Below, piece by piece: positions 10,502 to 20,896 of a stretch of DNA of 20,896 nt (position 1 is its first letter; every line of letters begins with the position of its first letter). The translations under genes were made by a program, and so were the position numbers. The notes below the pieces were generated by a model, which saw only the letters and a list, made by a program, of their open reading frames with translations, did no database searches and was not told where the DNA came from. This stretch comes from a virus. The stretch spans positions 1 through 20,896 of IMG/VR virus record IMGVR_UViG_3300042539_000805. One strand, given 5' to 3'.

Positions 10502-11914
10502 ATGGCGATCAATTTCCTTCGAGATTTGCTCAATCCGCAGCAGGCACCTTCGACGCCAATGATCGGACAATCACAAGCGCCGCAACCGCCCATGATGCCG
10601 CAAATGGGGGGAAATCTCCAGCGCATGACGGGCGGCGCGACCGATCCCCGGCTGGCGAACATCATGCAAGCGATTGGAGGAACACCTGACACAGCAGCCG
10701 TTCAGATGCCTGCTCAAATGTCGCAACCCAATGGTGCGCCAGCGCCGAAAAAGCGTCGTTCATTCCTCGACACGGTCGGCGGGATCGCGGACGTTATTGC
10801 GCGCGTCGGCGGTGCCGAAGCCCTCTATCAGCCGACGCTCGATGCCCGCGAAGATCGCGCGCGTGAAGTCGATCTTGAAGGGCTGCGCAAGCAATTGGTC
10901 GAACAGCAGATCACGCAGGGCGGGCAGACAATTCAGGCGGGCGAAGCGGAACTTGCCGACACCGAACGATCCCGACTAGGGACTGCTCTTGGCGCAATCG
11001 CGACCAATCCCGACGCGCTTGCGTTGTGGCCTCAGATCGCAGCAGAAGCCGGGATCGATCCACAGCGCGCCGCGCAGATTGGTGGTATTCTCCAGGCAAA
11101 TCCCGACGCAGCGGAAACCTTCGCCCGGTCGCTCGGTTGGTCGCCGGAAGCAAGCGGCGGCGGATCGCAGGCGAAGGAATTGCAGGTTTACGCACTGCTC
11201 AATTCGGAAAACCCCGAACTTGCGCAGTCGTATTTGCAGAGCATCGCCAACCCTGATTCCATGACGGAATACCAGCGTGGGCAGCTTGGTATTGCACTGG
11301 AAACGCTCGGACTGCGCCAGCAGGAAACCGAATTCGATCAAGGTATCGCGCTCGAAGAACTTGACATTAAGCAGGACAAGGCTGCGACGGGCGGTGCAGA
11401 TTTGACACCGAAAGATCGGAGTTCGATCACTCAAAAACTGAAAATGCTCCCGAATGTGCGCAGCCAATATAATCGCGTCCGCCAGCTATATGATGAAATG
11501 GTCGAAGAGGGTACTCTCGCGCGCGGCGCTGTCGGTGGCCTTTTGCCTGGACAGATCGCGGGCGGAAAAGCCGAAGTGTTCGACCGTGCCGTAGGTTCGC
11601 TGCGCAAGTCGATTTTGTCGATGACGCGCGTTCCCGGTGTTGGCTCCATGTCTGATTATGAAACCCGGCTTGACGAGGCTGCGCTTCCGAGCCGTTGGGG
11701 ATCGGATGAAGGTCGGGCCGAAGCCATCAACAACATCGGTTCGCTGATCGACAACTACGAAAGGGGCTACCGGGATATGCTCGGCACACCGCCTGCCGCT
11801 CCTGCACGTCCTGCACCCCGTCGCAGCGGCGCAGCCCCGGCGCGTCCTGCCGCTGGACGCCGTAGCGTGTCGCCGGCCGCAGCCGAAGCGCGCCGTAGGG
11901 GACTGATCCAGTAA
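10502..11914 (+). CDS. Internal virion/DNA ejection protein (candidate)
   Basis: This 470-aa protein has a Pro/Met/Gln-rich N-terminus (PPMMPQMGGNLQRM), a helical middle with charged heptad-like segments (REDRAREVDLEGLRKQLVEQ, then LGLRQQETEFDQGIALEELD), and a Pro/Ala/Arg-rich end (PAAPARPAPRRSGAAPARPA). Length, helical character and position just before the large peptidase-bearing protein fit the second member of a three-protein ejectosome as in P22 (gp7, gp20, gp16) or T7 (gp14, gp15, gp16). No family residue is recognised, so the role is inferred from context. The last codons overlap the next start as TAATG. Confidence 0.6.
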   Translation: MAINFLRDLLNPQQAPSTPMIGQSQAPQPPMMPQMGGNLQRMTGGATDPRLANIMQAIGGTPDTAAVQMPAQMSQPNGAPAPKKRRSFLDTVGGIADVIARVGGAEALYQPTLDAREDRAREVDLEGLRKQLVEQQITQGGQTIQAGEAELADTERSRLGTALGAIATNPDALALWPQIAAEAGIDPQRAAQIGGILQANPDAAETFARSLGWSPEASGGGSQAKELQVYALLNSENPELAQSYLQSIANPDSMTEYQRGQLGIALETLGLRQQETEFDQGIALEELDIKQDKAATGGADLTPKDRSSITQKLKMLPNVRSQYNRVRQLYDEMVEEGTLARGAVGGLLPGQIAGGKAEVFDRAVGSLRKSILSMTRVPGVGSMSDYETRLDEAALPSRWGSDEGRAEAINNIGSLIDNYERGYRDMLGTPPAAPARPAPRRSGAAPARPAAGRRSVSPAAAEARRRGLIQ

Positions 11915-14550
11915 TGGCAAAGCCGCCCGCCAAAAGCCCGAAGGCCACTCCGGCGCAAGCGCGCGCTGCTTACGAAAAGCAGCGACAACGTCTTGTCACG
12001 CGCTACGCCGACGATCCCGAAAAGCGCAAGGCTGCGCTCGCGGCGTATGAAAGCGATCCACGCATCCAGAATATCCGACGCATCGCGGGAATGCCGACCG
12101 TCACTACACGCCGCCAAGCGGTGAAGGAAACTGCGCGCCGAGTAATCGCCGAAGATCGTGCAGCCCCTTCGATCGTGCCAATGGCTTTGCGTGATGCAGG
12201 CGGGGCTTTGCTCGGCTCGGCGAATGATGCACTTTTCGGGCTTCCGGCGCGCGGCGCTGCGGCAATCCTTGGTATCGACAATGAGTTGATGCAGGAGTTT
12301 GCAGATCAGCAGGGGCAGCGCAATTCTCCCATAAATCTTGGGGGTACGCTTGGCGCAGGCTTTGTGACAGGTTCCGGCGTGGCAAGGGGTTTGGCGGCGG
12401 GCGGCGCGAAACTCGCAGCGACCGGCGCACCTTTGGCACAAGAAGCCGGAAACGTTCTCCAGAGCGTTTTCCAGCTTCGTCGCGGACAGAACGCCGCCAA
12501 TGCCGCAAAACTTGCCGGCACAGGCGCAGCATTCGGGGGTGCGACCGAAGCAGGCAAAGGTCGGAGCGTTGTCGAAGGTGCGGCTATTGGGGCTGGAACC
12601 GGACTTGCGTTGGGTGCAGGCTATAAAGGCGGGAAATTCCTCTACGGCAAAGCTTCGGACGTGCTGCGACTGACCGGCGCGGACGATATTCTGCGCAGCT
12701 ATACCAACACCACGCGCGAAGCATTGCAAAGCCGGATCGCCGCTTTTCGTAAGCAGACCGGCGCGGAACCGACGATGTACGAATTGCTGGATCTGAGTGA
12801 CCGGCAAAGCCTGCAAAAGGTGTTCGGTCGGCTGGATCGTGGGCAACAGGAGCGCGGCGCGGAACTCGCGAGGGCTCGTGTCGAAGCCATTCCTGGTGAA
12901 GTTGCGCAGTTAGCACGGAATGCCACGCGGGGACAGCGCAAGCGCAATATCTCCAACTTGGCTTCCGAACAAGCAGCGTCCCGCGGCGCACCGGCTGCGA
13001 CCACTGCCGAAGCACGCCTTGCCGTTGGTGCAGCGGACAATCCGACACGGCTTGCACAGCTTCGTCGGCAGGAAGCCCGCAACATCATGGGACCGTTCGA
13101 CGAACGCAAGGCAGTCGATAAATTCGGCGAACTGGTCCCGTCCGAGCCTCGCGCATTGAATCCCAAAAGGCCTGGTGAAATCACTGACGTACCAACCGAC
13201 CCCGAAATGGCAGCGGTGATCAAAGCTGCGGCCGGATCGGCTCGTATTCGCACGGAAGGCGGCGAAGGTTTGACCGTGCGCGAAGTCACCGGCATGATCC
13301 AAGAACTCAAGAGCGGGCTGACGCGTGGTAGCGTGATCGAGCGCGGCGTTGCGCAGCGAGCGATTGACCATCTGGAAGGTGTGATCGCGACACGTCATCC
13401 AGACGTTGCCCCGGCTCTCGCCCGCATGAATGAAGCATGGGCTGCACGCTCGCGCCAGATCGAGGGTATGCTGAGCACCCGCAATCAGGCTGATGTGAAT
13501 CCGAACACGGCACGCAATCTGCAACGCTCCGAAAACATCTATGAGACGCCGGAAGGTGCCGTAGGTCGCGCAGCGGGACAGCGTACCGAATTGCTCGACG
13601 ATCTCGGCGCAGCCAACTCCCCGGCGCTCGGCACAGTGCGAAATCTGGCTGAAAGCCAAACCGAAGCGCGCAGGATCGCGCAGAATATCGGGGTGCCTGC
13701 CACCCGCCAGATCACCGAAGCTGCACGAGCACAGAGCGAAAGCGCACGACGCTTGGCAACGGCAGTGCGCGATCCGAAGTTCGACGTGACGGAAATCGAG
13801 AGCGGCGACTTGGCCCTGCTTGCGGCTGGCCTCAATCCCTCGTCGATGGCCTACACCAAGGCCAAGGCTTTCACAGTCATGCTCGAAAGGTTCGGCAGCA
13901 GCATTCCTCAAACTCGATCGCGCGCAATTGTGGACATGCTGTTCTCTCGCGATCCGGCGATGACGCAACGTGCCATCAATGCCTTGCGCTCGCAACAGGA
14001 AGGTGGACGGGAAGCCCTGCGAGCGATCATCAACGCCGCGAGCACGGCAGTAGCTACCGGCACCGACCAGTCGAGCGACGAAGTCGCAACGCTGTCACCG
14101 GAAACGGCACCTGTCGAAGAAGCACAGGCAGAGGTCGATTATACGACCATGTCAGATGAAGAATTGCTCGCTGCACTCGAAGCCGAAGAAGCACAGGGCG
14201 AGACTGATTATTCGACTATGTCGGATGAAGAATTGCTCGCCGCGATAGAAGCCGAAGAAGCACAAGGTCCATATGGTCGGCGCGTGATCGAAAGCCTGTT
14301 TCCCGATGCAGTAATCACGGACGACAACCGCGATCCGGACAGCGATCTTGGTCGTAAAAACCCCGGCAGCTATCATGTCGGTACAGATGGCGCAGTGGAC
14401 GTTCGACCGATTCCCGGCATGACGTTCAACGAATTCGTCGAAACCCTGAAAGCCGAAGGCTACAACGTGGTGGAAGCCATCGACGAAACCGGCAAAGGTC
14501 GGTCAAAGCACGCTACCGGGCCGCATTGGCACGTAGTCATAGGAGAATAA
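11914..14550 (+). CDS. Large internal virion protein with C-terminal M15-type (D-Ala-D-Ala carboxypeptidase-like) domain
   Basis: This is the largest late gene (878 aa). The first 60 residues are basic and helical. Residues about 90-245 are Gly/Ala-rich with long hydrophobic stretches (GAAFGGATEAGKGRSVVEGA, AAIGAGTGLALGAGYKGGKF) that could cross a membrane during ejection. The middle (250-730) is helical. Residues about 742-787 hold two copies of a 23-residue acidic repeat (TMSDEELLAALEAEEAQ). The last 90 residues look like a zinc peptidase of the M15 type: NPGSYHVGTDGAVDVRPIPG gives the first His and the Asp, and HATGPHWHVVIG gives the final HxH. Virion enzymes like this open the peptidoglycan for DNA entry. 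The start at ATG 11914 overlaps the previous stop (TAATG). Confidence 0.8.
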   Translation: MAKPPAKSPKATPAQARAAYEKQRQRLVTRYADDPEKRKAALAAYESDPRIQNIRRIAGMPTVTTRRQAVKETARRVIAEDRAAPSIVPMALRDAGGALLGSANDALFGLPARGAAAILGIDNELMQEFADQQGQRNSPINLGGTLGAGFVTGSGVARGLAAGGAKLAATGAPLAQEAGNVLQSVFQLRRGQNAANAAKLAGTGAAFGGATEAGKGRSVVEGAAIGAGTGLALGAGYKGGKFLYGKASDVLRLTGADDILRSYTNTTREALQSRIAAFRKQTGAEPTMYELLDLSDRQSLQKVFGRLDRGQQERGAELARARVEAIPGEVAQLARNATRGQRKRNISNLASEQAASRGAPAATTAEARLAVGAADNPTRLAQLRRQEARNIMGPFDERKAVDKFGELVPSEPRALNPKRPGEITDVPTDPEMAAVIKAAAGSARIRTEGGEGLTVREVTGMIQELKSGLTRGSVIERGVAQRAIDHLEGVIATRHPDVAPALARMNEAWAARSRQIEGMLSTRNQADVNPNTARNLQRSENIYETPEGAVGRAAGQRTELLDDLGAANSPALGTVRNLAESQTEARRIAQNIGVPATRQITEAARAQSESARRLATAVRDPKFDVTEIESGDLALLAAGLNPSSMAYTKAKAFTVMLERFGSSIPQTRSRAIVDMLFSRDPAMTQRAINALRSQQEGGREALRAIINAASTAVATGTDQSSDEVATLSPETAPVEEAQAEVDYTTMSDEELLAALEAEEAQGETDYSTMSDEELLAAIEAEEAQGPYGRRVIESLFPDAVITDDNRDPDSDLGRKNPGSYHVGTDGAVDVRPIPGMTFNEFVETLKAEGYNVVEAIDETGKGRSKHATGPHWHVVIGE
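14137..14274 (+). repeat. Tandem 69-bp coding repeat, two copies
   Basis: Two in-phase copies begin at GATTATACG (14137) and GATTATTCG (14206). Each encodes a 23-residue unit with core TMSDEELLAALEAEEAQ or TMSDEELLAAIEAEEAQ. The copies differ at scattered bases, mostly silent, so protein sequence has been conserved since duplication. They form an acidic helical spacer between the helical body and the peptidase domain. Confidence 0.9.
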
Positions 14551-17028: not shown

Positions 17029-17108
17029 TTGCGTGTCGCCCACCAAGCACCAAAGACGGTGCCAACATTCACACCGCACACGAAGCCGACGAATATCCAG
17101 ATCAACAC
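17013..17108 (-). CDS. 31-aa single-membrane-segment peptide
   Basis: On the - strand, GTG 17108-17106 (or TTG 17105-17103) opens a 31-codon frame ending at TAG 17015-17013. It overlaps the end of the RuvC-like gene and is preceded by AAGGAA. The product is one hydrophobic helix (LIWIFVGFVCGVNVGTVFGA) with a short charged tail (TRNQDEQ). Tiny membrane peptides like this are frequent in phage early operons. Its 3' end overlaps the Rz1 gene of the opposite strand by 16 bases. It fills the otherwise geneless convergent junction. Confidence 0.55.
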   Translation of the reverse strand: MLIWIFVGFVCGVNVGTVFGAWWATRNQDEQ

Positions 17109-17578
17109 AGGAATTTCCTTCCGTAATGGGCGAGCAATGCAGCTTCGGCCCTGCCATCATCCTTGACCCGTTCAAGGTGCGATGCTGTTTTCGGATAAAG
17201 TGACCGGCACTTTTCCCGGCTGGCACCCTTCCCGCTGTTGAGCAACCCTAGCTTGGCCTTCCAGACGCTAGGGGTGACAAAGTGGACCGGGCAAGACGTG
17301 GTCGCCTGCACCAGCCCATGCACGAAGCCAAGTGTTCGGCCGAACGTGAACATTGACGTGACGCCCTGCCCCGGCCGCGCTGCGATATCCTCGATCACGA
17401 TCATGTCAGGAACCGATAGGTCCAGAGCCATGCACCACTCGCGAGCCCACAGGCTCCAAGCGGGCTTGTCTTTGCCTTTCAGCTTGATCCGCGGCACGTC
17501 GAAGAACTCGGCGCTTCCGTCCGGATGCAGGATTGCGAGTGCGCCTGTCTTGCCGGGATCAATACCGGCGATAATCAT
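17102..17578 (-). CDS. RuvC-like Holliday-junction resolvase
   Basis: This 158-aa nuclease has the RNase H-like core of RuvC: MIIAGIDPGKTGALAIL with the first catalytic Asp at residue 7, IVIEDIAARPGQGV with Glu 63, and KDDGRAEAALLAHYG with Asp 141 and Glu 145. It would resolve branched replication and recombination DNA before packaging. I chose ATG 17578 because the product then starts at the core strand, the ATG overlaps the HNH stop (ATGA) and GGGAG lies 9 bases upstream. The frame is open 13 codons further back (to 17617), inside the HNH gene. Confidence 0.85.
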   Translation of the reverse strand: MIIAGIDPGKTGALAILHPDGSAEFFDVPRIKLKGKDKPAWSLWAREWCMALDLSVPDMIVIEDIAARPGQGVTSMFTFGRTLGFVHGLVQATTSCPVHFVTPSVWKAKLGLLNSGKGASREKCRSLYPKTASHLERVKDDGRAEAALLAHYGRKFLC

Positions 17579-18051
17579 GTTACCAACTCCCTTTCCAGCA
17601 AATAAGGATGCAGCCACCTAGGCGGGTCGAACCAAGGAATATCCAGAATTTCACGTTTCGGCGCTTCATACTGTTCGAAACCTCTTGTGACCAAAAGCCA
17701 GTGCTGACGGGTCAATGGGTTTTGCGCGCAGCGATGATCTTTGCGGATAGTCTGCAATTCGCGGTTCTCCGCGGACGTCACCACTTTGACATGCTCGACA
17801 CACAAAGTCGATGGTCCACAGGGGCAGCAATGATCGACTTGCAAATCTTCGATTTCGAAGCCGTGGATATGTAACACCGCCCATCTGTGAGCAAACCAAC
17901 GCCTTCCTTCGAACCAGAATGCGCCATAGGGCTGATTATGGCCATGACCGCTGGTAGTGCCACCAACCCACATGACGCAGCCGGTCACAGGATCAAAGGC
18001 GCATTTCTCGGCGAAGCGATCCAGTGCAGGGCGATCAATCCAGCGCGGCAT
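17575..18051 (-). CDS. HNH endonuclease, probably a free-standing homing-type enzyme
   Basis: This 158-aa protein has an HNH layout: GCVMWVGGTTSGHGHNQPYG (strand and turn), FAHRWAVLHIHG (His 55), QVDHCCPCGPSTLCVEHVKV with His 74 and His 87, and TSAENRELQ with Asn 96. Cys 75-84 may hold a structural zinc. This domain type is common in phage free-standing endonucleases of about 150-200 aa. It starts at the last base of the polymerase stop (TAATG) and ends overlapping the resolvase start, so it is inserted without gaps in the replication operon. GC in a line I counted is about 47%, lower than its neighbours, consistent with acquisition. Confidence 0.8.
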   Translation of the reverse strand: MPRWIDRPALDRFAEKCAFDPVTGCVMWVGGTTSGHGHNQPYGAFWFEGRRWFAHRWAVLHIHGFEIEDLQVDHCCPCGPSTLCVEHVKVVTSAENRELQTIRKDHRCAQNPLTRQHWLLVTRGFEQYEAPKREILDIPWFDPPRWLHPYLLERELVT

Positions 18052-20896
18052 TATTTCCGATACCTAACCATTTTGTCCACTTCGGCCTTAACCCGAAAGC
18101 GCCGCTCGATTGCCCACGGTGAGATATCCTCCATCACCTGCTTGACGACTTGGCAGATATCAGGCCGGTCGAATTCCTCGAAAACCAATTCATCGTGAAC
18201 CTTGAACACGGTATTGAGCCCCGCAGCTTCGGCGCGCTTCATCGCTTCCACCATGAGATCGCGCGCACTGCCCTGGATGCAGTCGGCGGTCAGCATACCG
18301 TGCCATGCCAGATGCCTGCGGAACTTCTTGCCCTGATAGGACATGAAGGTCCACGAAGGCCGCTCATCGCCACTAGGCGTGTAGCTGATGGCCTTGCGCG
18401 GTCGGTGATACCAAAGCTTCCGGCCGCTCGGCAAGCGCATGGTGAGAAAGTCGTTTTCCTTGCGAAATTCGATGCCTTCATAGCTGTAGGTTTTCGCGTG
18501 ATCGCAATAGACCGCCGACACGCTCGCGTCCCATAGGCCATACCAGAATTTCGGCACCTTTGGTGCGAATTCCCTGCGATAAGTGTTGATGGCGAGCATC
18601 GCGAGATCGATGCTGTCTTTCGGCGCGAACCGGGCACGGAAGCCGACCGGCCCAAGGCCATAGCCCGAGTTGTGGACGATCAGAGGCCCGTCAGAGGTCA
18701 TAACCGTGAAGCGGTTCCGAGGCCCTGCATTCACAAGATCGTAAACAGGCTCGCAACATTTCGATTTCTTGGAGCGCTTCATCCAATCGGCTTTGCAAGA
18801 CAGAAATTTGCCGCTTGTTCGAAGCATTTTCGGATTTTGTCGCAAATCGTAAATTTCCCGGCTCATAGCCTTTATCGTTGTCGATACGGTCGATTTCCAG
18901 AGCCGGATCATCCCAACCTTCAAGAGTGAGTAAATACGCGAGAAACTTGCGCTTAGGTTCCGTCGATCCAACACCCCATCGCGCACCTGTGGAATCCCAT
19001 TCCGGCCATACTCGAATACCTCGACCTGCATAATGCTTGGCGAGTTTGCTTGTGCTGCCAAGGCGACACCGAGATTGGATAGAGGAAATACGATTGAGCA
19101 GACGTGTCCGGACTGCGTCATTCGGACAAATTTCCGCGTATCGCCAATACTTCTTTTGCTGCGTGTTGATTGATTTTTTCTTGGCGCACTCATTGCATCC
19201 TTGAGAACGACCGCTGCGAAAATTATACTCTTCCACAAATTTTGGGCCTGTCCCACAATAGCATTGGCAGACAGGCCCATAAAAATATCCAAATTCGGTG
19301 TAGGCATACCCAAGCACGGTCCATGACCCTTGGCGTAGGCCAATGCTTGGGAAATCTTCGCTTCGGTCGCCTCGTCGGCGCGGAACCACGACACCCCATC
19401 GAACACCGCGTGATCGGTCGTGAGGCGAAGGCCGGAGATATTCAAAGTCTCCTTGAAGCCCTTGAATGCGAGTCCGTTGTGGGTAACCCACTCTATTCCG
19501 TCCCATAGCAAATCCTCAAGTCGCACATCAACAATGGCTTTCCAACCATTCGAAGTCAATACTTGAGTTGGGGCAGCTAGGCAACCTAAAACGGTGTTCT
19601 TCCCGATCTGTCCTTCCTTCGCCTGCGCTGGATCTTTTCGATTGATCGGGCGGCGAAAGATCATCGAAGCCGTCTCGGAATAAACATCAAGGCCGGCGTG
19701 CATCTGTTCGACGCGGTCATGCTGCCCTGCCATCGAAAGCAGGTTGCGCGCTTCGACCGCGGCGAAGTCCCCGGCCACCAGCACCTTGCCCTTCTCTGGC
19801 ACAATGCAGGAGCGCAGCGACGAGATTACGGCCGTGAAGATATCCGGACCCCAAATCTCGCGGATCAGTCCCACGTCGCGCGTTAGAATCGCGTCGGCGA
19901 GAATGTCAGCGGTAAGTCCTTGTCGATCTCCAATTTCCCCTCGTGGGTAGTTCTGGATTTGGATGAGTCGTCCAGCGTCTCGCCCGGTACGGGCACCATG
20001 ATATTGGGTTGCATACCGAACACGACCGTCACCGCCTGCACAGTCGAGCATTCGTTGAAGTTTCGCCACGGAACTTGAAGCGAGGCTTCGGCGCAAAGTG
20101 AGAACTTCGTGAACGTGGTAAGGAAGCGGTTCTCCGAAATCTTCAATTCCGAATTCGTCATCGGGATCAAGAATTGCATCGAGCGTGGCCTTTTTCATGT
20201 CTCCAAGGGCAATGCCTTGATCGTTTACCCAATTCAGCACCTTCTCGCGCTGTGTCGGCTTCAATCCTGTCAACTCGTGAAACCGCTCGACCATCGGGAC
20301 GCGCACCTGATTGAGTACGTCGATGCAGGCGTTCACGAATTCCGTATCGACCCTGATCCCGCGTTGATTAATGCGCTGATCCAGCACCCAGGTATGCCGC
20401 TCGGAAGGGCCGAGCCCTTGTGTCGAGACATAAACCCCATATTGTGCCTCAGCGTCGTCGCCGCAATAATCACCAAGCCGATTGAGGTTGTATTCATTGT
20501 GGTGCGACCAGCCACCGTCCCGATCAGGCTTGCACATGATCAGCATGTGCCTGTGACCGTCCATATCCTTCTTCACCGGCAGTTCGAGCGCCGTCACGAG
20601 CGCGTCCAGGCCAAGTGGCAGGGCTTTCATACCTGCAACCGCCATCGTATCGTGCCAGCGTTCGGGCGGCAATTCAGGATAGCCCATCGGAACCATGTGA
20701 AACTTCCACATGGCTTGCTCGAATCCGGCGTTGTGAGCGATGAAAATCACTTCGAGATCATTGGCGAGCGCCATCAATTCCGCATCGCGCGCGTGCATCT
20801 GCTTTTCGGTCAAAACACGAGTGCGCTGCGGCTTCTTGTCGATCACCACCTTGAGAGACAGGCACAGCGGAAAAGTCGTCGCGTCGGCGGCATACT
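18051..20896 (-). CDS. Family A DNA polymerase with 3'-5' exonuclease domain, interrupted by an intein (partial, N-terminus beyond window)
   Basis: The frame is open to the right edge and no start is visible. The edge begins in YAADATTFPL, a segment that normally follows the first exonuclease acid. Numbered from the Met at 20849: exonuclease motifs IFIAHNAGFEQAMW (35-48) and YCGDDAEAQYGVY (128-140), fingers-region RTGRDAGRLIQIQNYPRG (287-304), motif A VAGDFAAVEAR with Asp 361, motif B GKNTVLG (416-422) continuing as SGYGLG (728-733), and motif C VHDE (884-887). Without the intein the visible part is 627 aa plus 15 beyond the Met, near the size of phage replicative Pol A. The position equal to E. 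coli Phe762 is Leu 421. Stop TAA 18053-18051 overlaps the HNH start. Confidence 0.9.
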   Translation of the reverse strand, partial: YAADATTFPLCLSLKVVIDKKPQRTRVLTEKQMHARDAELMALANDLEVIFIAHNAGFEQAMWKFHMVPMGYPELPPERWHDTMAVAGMKALPLGLDALVTALELPVKKDMDGHRHMLIMCKPDRDGGWSHHNEYNLNRLGDYCGDDAEAQYGVYVSTQGLGPSERHTWVLDQRINQRGIRVDTEFVNACIDVLNQVRVPMVERFHELTGLKPTQREKVLNWVNDQGIALGDMKKATLDAILDPDDEFGIEDFGEPLPYHVHEVLTLRRSLASSSVAKLQRMLDCAGGDGRVRYATQYHGARTGRDAGRLIQIQNYPRGEIGDRQGLTADILADAILTRDVGLIREIWGPDIFTAVISSLRSCIVPEKGKVLVAGDFAAVEARNLLSMAGQHDRVEQMHAGLDVYSETASMIFRRPINRKDPAQAKEGQIGKNTVLGCLAAPTQVLTSNGWKAIVDVRLEDLLWDGIEWVTHNGLAFKGFKETLNISGLRLTTDHAVFDGVSWFRADEATEAKISQALAYAKGHGPCLGMPTPNLDIFMGLSANAIVGQAQNLWKSIIFAAVVLKDAMSAPRKNQSTRSKRSIGDTRKFVRMTQSGHVCSIVFPLSNLGVALAAQANSPSIMQVEVFEYGRNGIPQVRDGVLDRRNLSASFSRIYSLLKVGMIRLWKSTVSTTIKAMSREIYDLRQNPKMLRTSGKFLSCKADWMKRSKKSKCCEPVYDLVNAGPRNRFTVMTSDGPLIVHNSGYGLGPVGFRARFAPKDSIDLAMLAINTYRREFAPKVPKFWYGLWDASVSAVYCDHAKTYSYEGIEFRKENDFLTMRLPSGRKLWYHRPRKAISYTPSGDERPSWTFMSYQGKKFRRHLAWHGMLTADCIQGSARDLMVEAMKRAEAAGLNTVFKVHDELVFEEFDRPDICQVVKQVMEDISPWAIERRFRVKAEVDKMVRYRK
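18691..19506 (-). CDS. HNH homing endonuclease nested out of frame inside the polymerase intein
   Basis: This 271-codon frame lies entirely within the intein, one base behind the intein frame. From residue 60 it reads as a phage HNH homing enzyme: GSWTVLGYAYTEFGYF, a zinc-ribbon-like part with Cys 82/84 and Cys 104/107 (QCYCGTG, GCNEC), HYAGRGIRVWPEW (158-170), then ALEIDRIDNDKGYEPGNLRF (202-221) and SENASNKR (225-232), followed by an amphipathic helix. Residues 1-59 overlap splicing block B and look non-homologous. ATG 19506 is the first start after an in-frame TGA at 19518-19516 and has GAGGA six bases upstream. GTG 19389 is a later alternative. The stop (18693-18691) falls between blocks F and G. 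GC in lines I counted is about 42-53%, against about 57% around it. Confidence 0.82.
   Translation of the reverse strand: MGRNRVGYPQRTRIQGLQGDFEYLRPSPHDRSRGVRWGVVVPRRRGDRSEDFPSIGLRQGSWTVLGYAYTEFGYFYGPVCQCYCGTGPKFVEEYNFRSGRSQGCNECAKKKSINTQQKKYWRYAEICPNDAVRTRLLNRISSIQSRCRLGSTSKLAKHYAGRGIRVWPEWDSTGARWGVGSTEPKRKFLAYLLTLEGWDDPALEIDRIDNDKGYEPGNLRFATKSENASNKRQISVLQSRLDEALQEIEMLRACLRSCECRASEPLHGYDL
19507..19517 (-). promoter_or_regulatory. Internal Shine-Dalgarno for the nested endonuclease
   Basis: GAGGA at 19517-19513 on the - strand, a 6-base spacer TTTGCT, then ATG 19506. It lies within intein codons for LEDLLW, which follow block A. The TGA closing the endonuclease frame upstream overlaps this Shine-Dalgarno. 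Part of the match could be accidental, since LEDLLWDG-like sequence is common in this type of intein. Confidence 0.55.

Follow-up and report, generated by a model that had tools for sequence, protein, structure and literature searches.

The polymerase locus and its intein

The window, that is, the whole stretch of viral DNA analysed here (20,896 nucleotides, IMG/VR record IMGVR_UViG_3300042539_000805), carries on its minus strand the open reading frame of a family A DNA polymerase precursor (18051..20849), which runs past the window edge and matches Pfam DNA_pol_A (2.4e-14) and PHROG phrog_17 (9.6e-59). All features described below lie on the same strand unless stated otherwise. The N-extein (19584..20849) ends with ...GQIGKNTVLG in the O-helix (motif B), which is unbroken in relatives with an empty site, and the C-extein (18051..18668) starts with SGYGLG. 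Between them lies an intein of 915 bases and 305 residues (18669..19583), which forms a single open reading frame with the polymerase in the window and in its relatives, with one exception (L191, see below). It is composed of a Hint N part (19314..19583, residues 1-90), a stop-free spacer predicted to be disordered (18771..19310, residues 92-271) and a Hint C part containing blocks F and G (18669..18770, residues 272-305).

Residues C1, T55, H58, D282, G299, H304 and N305 are invariant in 51 intein sequences, and the features expected of a class 1 cis-splicing intein are all present: Cys1, TxxH in block B, a terminal His-Asn and, in the window, a +1 Ser. AlphaFold2 models the intein frame with a pLDDT of about 97 at residues 1-90 and 272-305, and mostly below 50 at residues 92-271. 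Both ends meet the expectation for a Hint fold (pLDDT 91-98), and the top Foldseek matches are the solved inteins gp41-1, Npu DnaB and RecA (probability about 1.00, best E 2.5e-3); moreover, the intein profile matches NEQ068 at 6.5e-4.

The same insert could be read as a group I self-splicing intron carrying an HNH open reading frame. Group I introns often carry HNH genes, and the GenBank record of Sodalis SO-1 calls its polA insert an intron, the notes of gp38 and gp39 reading "type I self-splicing intron". Against this, an Rfam search gave no family, and hence no intron, at the gathering threshold, the catalytic residues of the intein are invariant, its Hint parts are under purifying selection and the frame is open throughout, so that an intron can be practically ruled out.

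A free-standing HNH endonuclease gene (17575-18051) is found directly downstream, touching the polymerase stop; an endonuclease gene just after polA is also present in SO-1, SETP3 and APSE-1. A RuvC-like Holliday junction resolvase (17102-17617; phrog_1770, 8.8e-29) is also encoded in the window, as is a large protein on the plus strand (11914-14550) with a duplicated acidic motif, TMSDEELLAALEAEEAQG, and a C-terminal stretch resembling a peptidoglycan peptidase, for which the PHROG search gave no match.

The nested endonuclease gene

An open reading frame of 816 bases and 271 codons (18691..19506) lies entirely within the intein in the -1 frame relative to the polymerase, each of its codons starting one base before a polymerase codon. 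It matches the HNH family phrog_374 of PHROGs (4.9e-26), whereas a Pfam search that detected the polymerase gave no match for it. Its predicted folded part (18727..19359, approximately residues 50-260), delimited by AlphaFold2 and by alignments, contains the motifs CxC...CxxC, GRGI..W, DRIDxDxxYEPGNLRF and SENxxN and a C-terminal helix. Eighteen residues, including four Cys, are invariant in 47 homologues; C82, C84, C104, C107 and N218 are among the invariant positions, and both the motif and the zinc-binding Cys expected of an HNH enzyme are therefore in place. In the branch of the window, what we take to be the first His of the HNH consensus is an Arg (R207, invariant), so HNH catalysis cannot be assumed.

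In the AlphaFold2 model of this frame, residues 1-33 score below 50 and most of residues 50-260 about 90. The ordered regions of the two frames are thus predicted to be largely complementary, and the first 33-50 codons would be a mere shadow of the splicing block of the intein, the endonuclease proper being confined to about residues 50-260. Foldseek matches of the model to the PacI and Gme HNH structures are weak (E 0.2-0.5), and a profile search of the PDB with the HNH gave no match.

An earlier note on this DNA had placed the endonuclease at 18691-19506 (816 bases), one base out of frame and wholly inside a continuous intein of 915 bases and 305 residues, and had named its HNH motifs; all these claims held.

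Recurrence of the layout

Since two compensating indels could displace an ordinary in-frame endonuclease and mimic the picture seen here, a sequencing or assembly error is the most immediate objection, and one of the loci described below, L024, does have a break in its polymerase frame. The earlier note had named two results that would refute its reading: raw reads with such indels, or homologues with the endonuclease motifs in the intein frame. Neither was found. Contig L167, from a separate assembly, differs from the window by 3 mismatches and no gaps over 3877 bp (99.92% identity), and the HNH is in the intein frame in 0 of 80 inteins of the family.

A tblastn search of phage records with the HNH frame returned polymerase inteins with about 40% identity in Salmonella phages SETP3 and Ent1, Sodalis SO-1, Shigella EP23, Vibrio 97.13 and EBPR siphovirus 2. 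The nesting is identical in the extracted frames of SO-1, 97.13, SETP3, EBPR siphovirus 2, VT223 and Ent1; for EP23 it was deduced from the match coordinates. The deposited record of Ent1 (L007, 2690-3586) describes the intein only as "splicing domains" and has no entry for the nested HNH.

A scan with the HNH alignment yielded 80 loci, to which six phage records were added. The HNH region is nested in a polymerase frame at a constant offset in all 35 loci L002-L036, with two breaks, one in the HNH frame (L032) and one upstream in the polymerase frame (L024); across the HNH of 51 more distant relatives (L037-L087) neither a polymerase nor any other long frame was found. A second scan, with the N block of the intein, gave the 80 inteins mentioned above: 53 carry the HNH in the frame used by the window (f2), 21 carry a different HNH in the other alternative frame (f1), and six have no HNH match, these including mini-inteins of about 135 residues, the remnant L196 and the split case L191. 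Scanning with the f1 HNH, which is of the APSE-1 type and occurs in related inteins inserted elsewhere in PolA, added 38 further nested loci, all in polymerases, and two that are cut short. These three sets of loci overlap in some contigs. Within each type the offset is constant in all nested relatives, and among the endonuclease relatives fetched no nesting was found in host genes other than polymerases. The layout is therefore genuine and not a sequencing error, being conserved in many other phages; the search for PolA inteins with both frames that the earlier note proposed finds it in dozens of diverged phage polymerases. Together with the gap-free independent contig, the exact empty site in close relatives, the constant offset of each type and the stop avoidance reported below, this leaves almost no room for the error hypothesis.

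Two insertion sites fall in the O-helix (GKxxxLG^CGYG and GKA^CELGLG) and several near ENxxQAxAR. The polymerases of L019 and of L029/L197 have two inteins each, one with an f2 and the other with an f1 HNH. Few forks are resolved in a tree of the Hint parts; the mini-inteins are scattered in it (6 changes for 6 rows), which would be compatible with repeated loss of the HNH. The f1 label is clustered and not monophyletic, partly because the c-site inteins of L019 and L029 are labelled f2 though they carry f1 HNHs.

Selection on the two frames

The stops to be expected in the polymerase frame were counted after shuffling synonymous codons of the HNH. No intein-frame stop was observed against 112.4 expected in 29 nested loci, none against 132.9 in 37 f2 loci and none against 86.8 in 16 f1 loci. 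Stops in the third frame, used as control, are at expectation (406 against 392.7, 486 against 459.8 and 133 against 137.7), and 49 free-standing relatives show no avoidance (263 against 257.0). The overlap far exceeds chance.

In pairs with unsaturated dS, dN/dS in the HNH frame is 0.05-0.28, and 0.07 between L167, which is near-identical to the window, and L171. Over the same DNA the intein frame gives ratios between 0.66 and 6.7, most of which exceed 1. Pooled over 11 pairs, these are 0.21 for residues 1-25, 0.42 for residues 26-90, 1.45 for the middle and 0.12 for the last 34 residues. The method ignores the overlap and inflates the intein-frame ratio wherever synonymous sites of the HNH are nonsynonymous sites of the intein, so an open frame without constraint, and not positive selection, is the best reading of the middle. 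The dN/dS of both frames, which the earlier note had suggested computing, thus comes to 0.05-0.28 for the HNH and, for the intein, to about 1.4 in the same DNA and 0.12-0.42 in the splicing blocks. Both frames are under selection: the HNH for its amino acids, the intein for its amino acids where it forms the Hint parts and for an open frame in between.

Loss and decay of the HNH, and inferred mobility

The insertion site is without intein in 34 of 39 close C-extein relatives and occupied in 5. Empty sites occur at up to 93% protein identity; for example, in L248, whose protein is 93% identical, the site reads GQIGKNTVLG|SGYGLG. The HNH can also be missing while the intein frame stays intact: L174 corresponds to L175 minus exactly 531 bases, which removes the HNH and leaves a mini-intein of 135 residues with flanks 99.6-100% identical. 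These two near-identical contigs come from one metagenome and represent a natural, exact removal of the nested HNH. Furthermore, L032 and L183 have a broken HNH frame, and in L234 and L236 this frame has an internal deletion, the polymerase remaining open. Patchy occupancy and decay on the HNH side are the pattern of a homing cycle, in which cleavage and homing themselves are inferred.

Decayed and deleted copies could also suggest that the HNH is a relic, once active and now persisting by recent descent alone in what is effectively a mini-intein. The low HNH dN/dS in many pairs, L167 and L171 included, speaks strongly against it, and we regard this reading as very improbable.

In the split member of the family, L191 (3844-5817), the polymerase frame ends once the N part is complete, and the C part is encoded together with the C-extein in another open reading frame that follows; the gap is overlapped by a GIY-YIG open reading frame. 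This locus may be a link between nested and split inteins.

Putative start site and inferred expression

In the window, an ATG preceded at 6 bases by GAGGA (19513..19517; anti-Shine-Dalgarno duplex -6.0 kcal/mol), the use of which is not proven, lies at the first Trp of the motif WDGxxW (ATG 19506), and a GTG (19489..19491) at the second, where most homologues have ATG. At this second Trp the f2 members have mostly ATG and in some cases GTG, preceded by the Shine-Dalgarno-like GGGAYGGN. Shine-Dalgarno strength was considered as proof of initiation and rejected, because the run follows from the codons for WDGxxW, and members with another HNH or none have it at the same strength. Judged from sequence alone, the most it can be is a start site that was already there.

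Programmed -1 frameshifting would give a fusion of N-extein, Hint and HNH instead of a separate enzyme, and the HNH of the window type does sit in the -1 frame. No conserved slippery site was found: in the stretch where a shift would be possible, just 9 of 69 window-type inteins have any heptamer X_XXY_YYZ, at scattered positions, and the other type would require a +1 shift, which makes frameshifting an improbable alternative to internal initiation.

Proposed mechanism

The architecture, its conservation, selection on both frames, the empty-site alleles and the decay or loss of the HNH with an intact intein frame are shown. We interpret them as a continuous mobile PolA intein that contains the endonuclease as a separate gene in an alternative frame; we consider this likely (about 0.85), with splicing, internal initiation, cleavage and homing being inferred. 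According to this model, the polymerase frame would be translated through the whole insert, and the two folded ends would form a Hint domain that splices out of the O-helix, the 180 residues in the middle being a disordered spacer. The best reading is that this spacer stays free of stops because the same DNA also codes for an endonuclease with a translation start of its own. The HNH enzyme would be produced from the -1 frame, most likely by internal initiation at the ATG or GTG overlapping the WDGxxW codons, and would be predicted to cleave the insertion site in polA genes that lack the intein; repair would then copy the intein together with the nested gene.

A bolder reading, which we favour by a narrow margin, is that these are a third, unrecognised class: PolA inteins with a fully overlapping endonuclease gene that would have arisen separately in both frames and at several sites, with a meaningless spacer held open by selection and the WDGxxW codons providing the start.

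The earlier note's claim of a third design held and is widened to several sites, both alternative frames and mini-inteins without HNH, with splicing, separate translation and cleavage still inferred. Its statement that no description was known held only in part: overlapping CDS were already in GenBank, and a hidden HNH was published in 2025 (PMC11855218). No text recognising an intein with a nested out-of-frame endonuclease was found in the open-access literature searched, which did not reach bioRxiv 2025.01.02.630785 ("...Non-Canonical Architecture"); priority is uncertain because of these GenBank entries and of this preprint.

The arrangement is a third way of encoding a mobile intein. It uncouples the enzyme from splicing, so that enzyme level and decay can change without preventing maturation of the host protein. 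The natural nested, deleted, decayed and split cases are clean material for testing how endonucleases enter and leave inteins, and for asking if split inteins arise from out-of-frame capture. Annotated inteins with a long unexplained middle and no recognised endonuclease, such as that of Ent1, may conceal one out of frame.

Comparison with known systems

In the standard description, the endonuclease is a domain inside the intein protein (PMC6801210). Large inteins with an in-frame LAGLIDADG or HNH endonuclease resemble the polA intein in that the Hint domain is interrupted between its N and C parts and in being mobile and patchily distributed; they differ because in polA the enzyme is in another frame, outside the intein protein, whose middle is predicted to be disordered. 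NEQ068 (the N. equitans Pol intein), gp41-1, Npu DnaB and RecA inteins share a Hint fold or profile match with the polA intein and are not known to have an overlapping endonuclease. In split inteins with a free-standing endonuclease ("fractured genes") a separate enzyme is likewise encoded between the Hint parts, whereas here intein and host gene are one continuous open reading frame.

An out-of-frame HNH has been described in an actinophage methylase insertion, the ShiLan domain (PMC11855218). This "hidden HNH" is similar in that the insertion is open in the host frame, but it has no intein splicing blocks; in the polA insert these are complete and conserved, so it is not of the ShiLan type. 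The same architecture as in the window is found in APSE-1 P45/P46, where the overlap (offset 2254) is in the +1 frame, and in Sodalis SO-1 gp38/gp39, both entered in GenBank as overlapping CDS.
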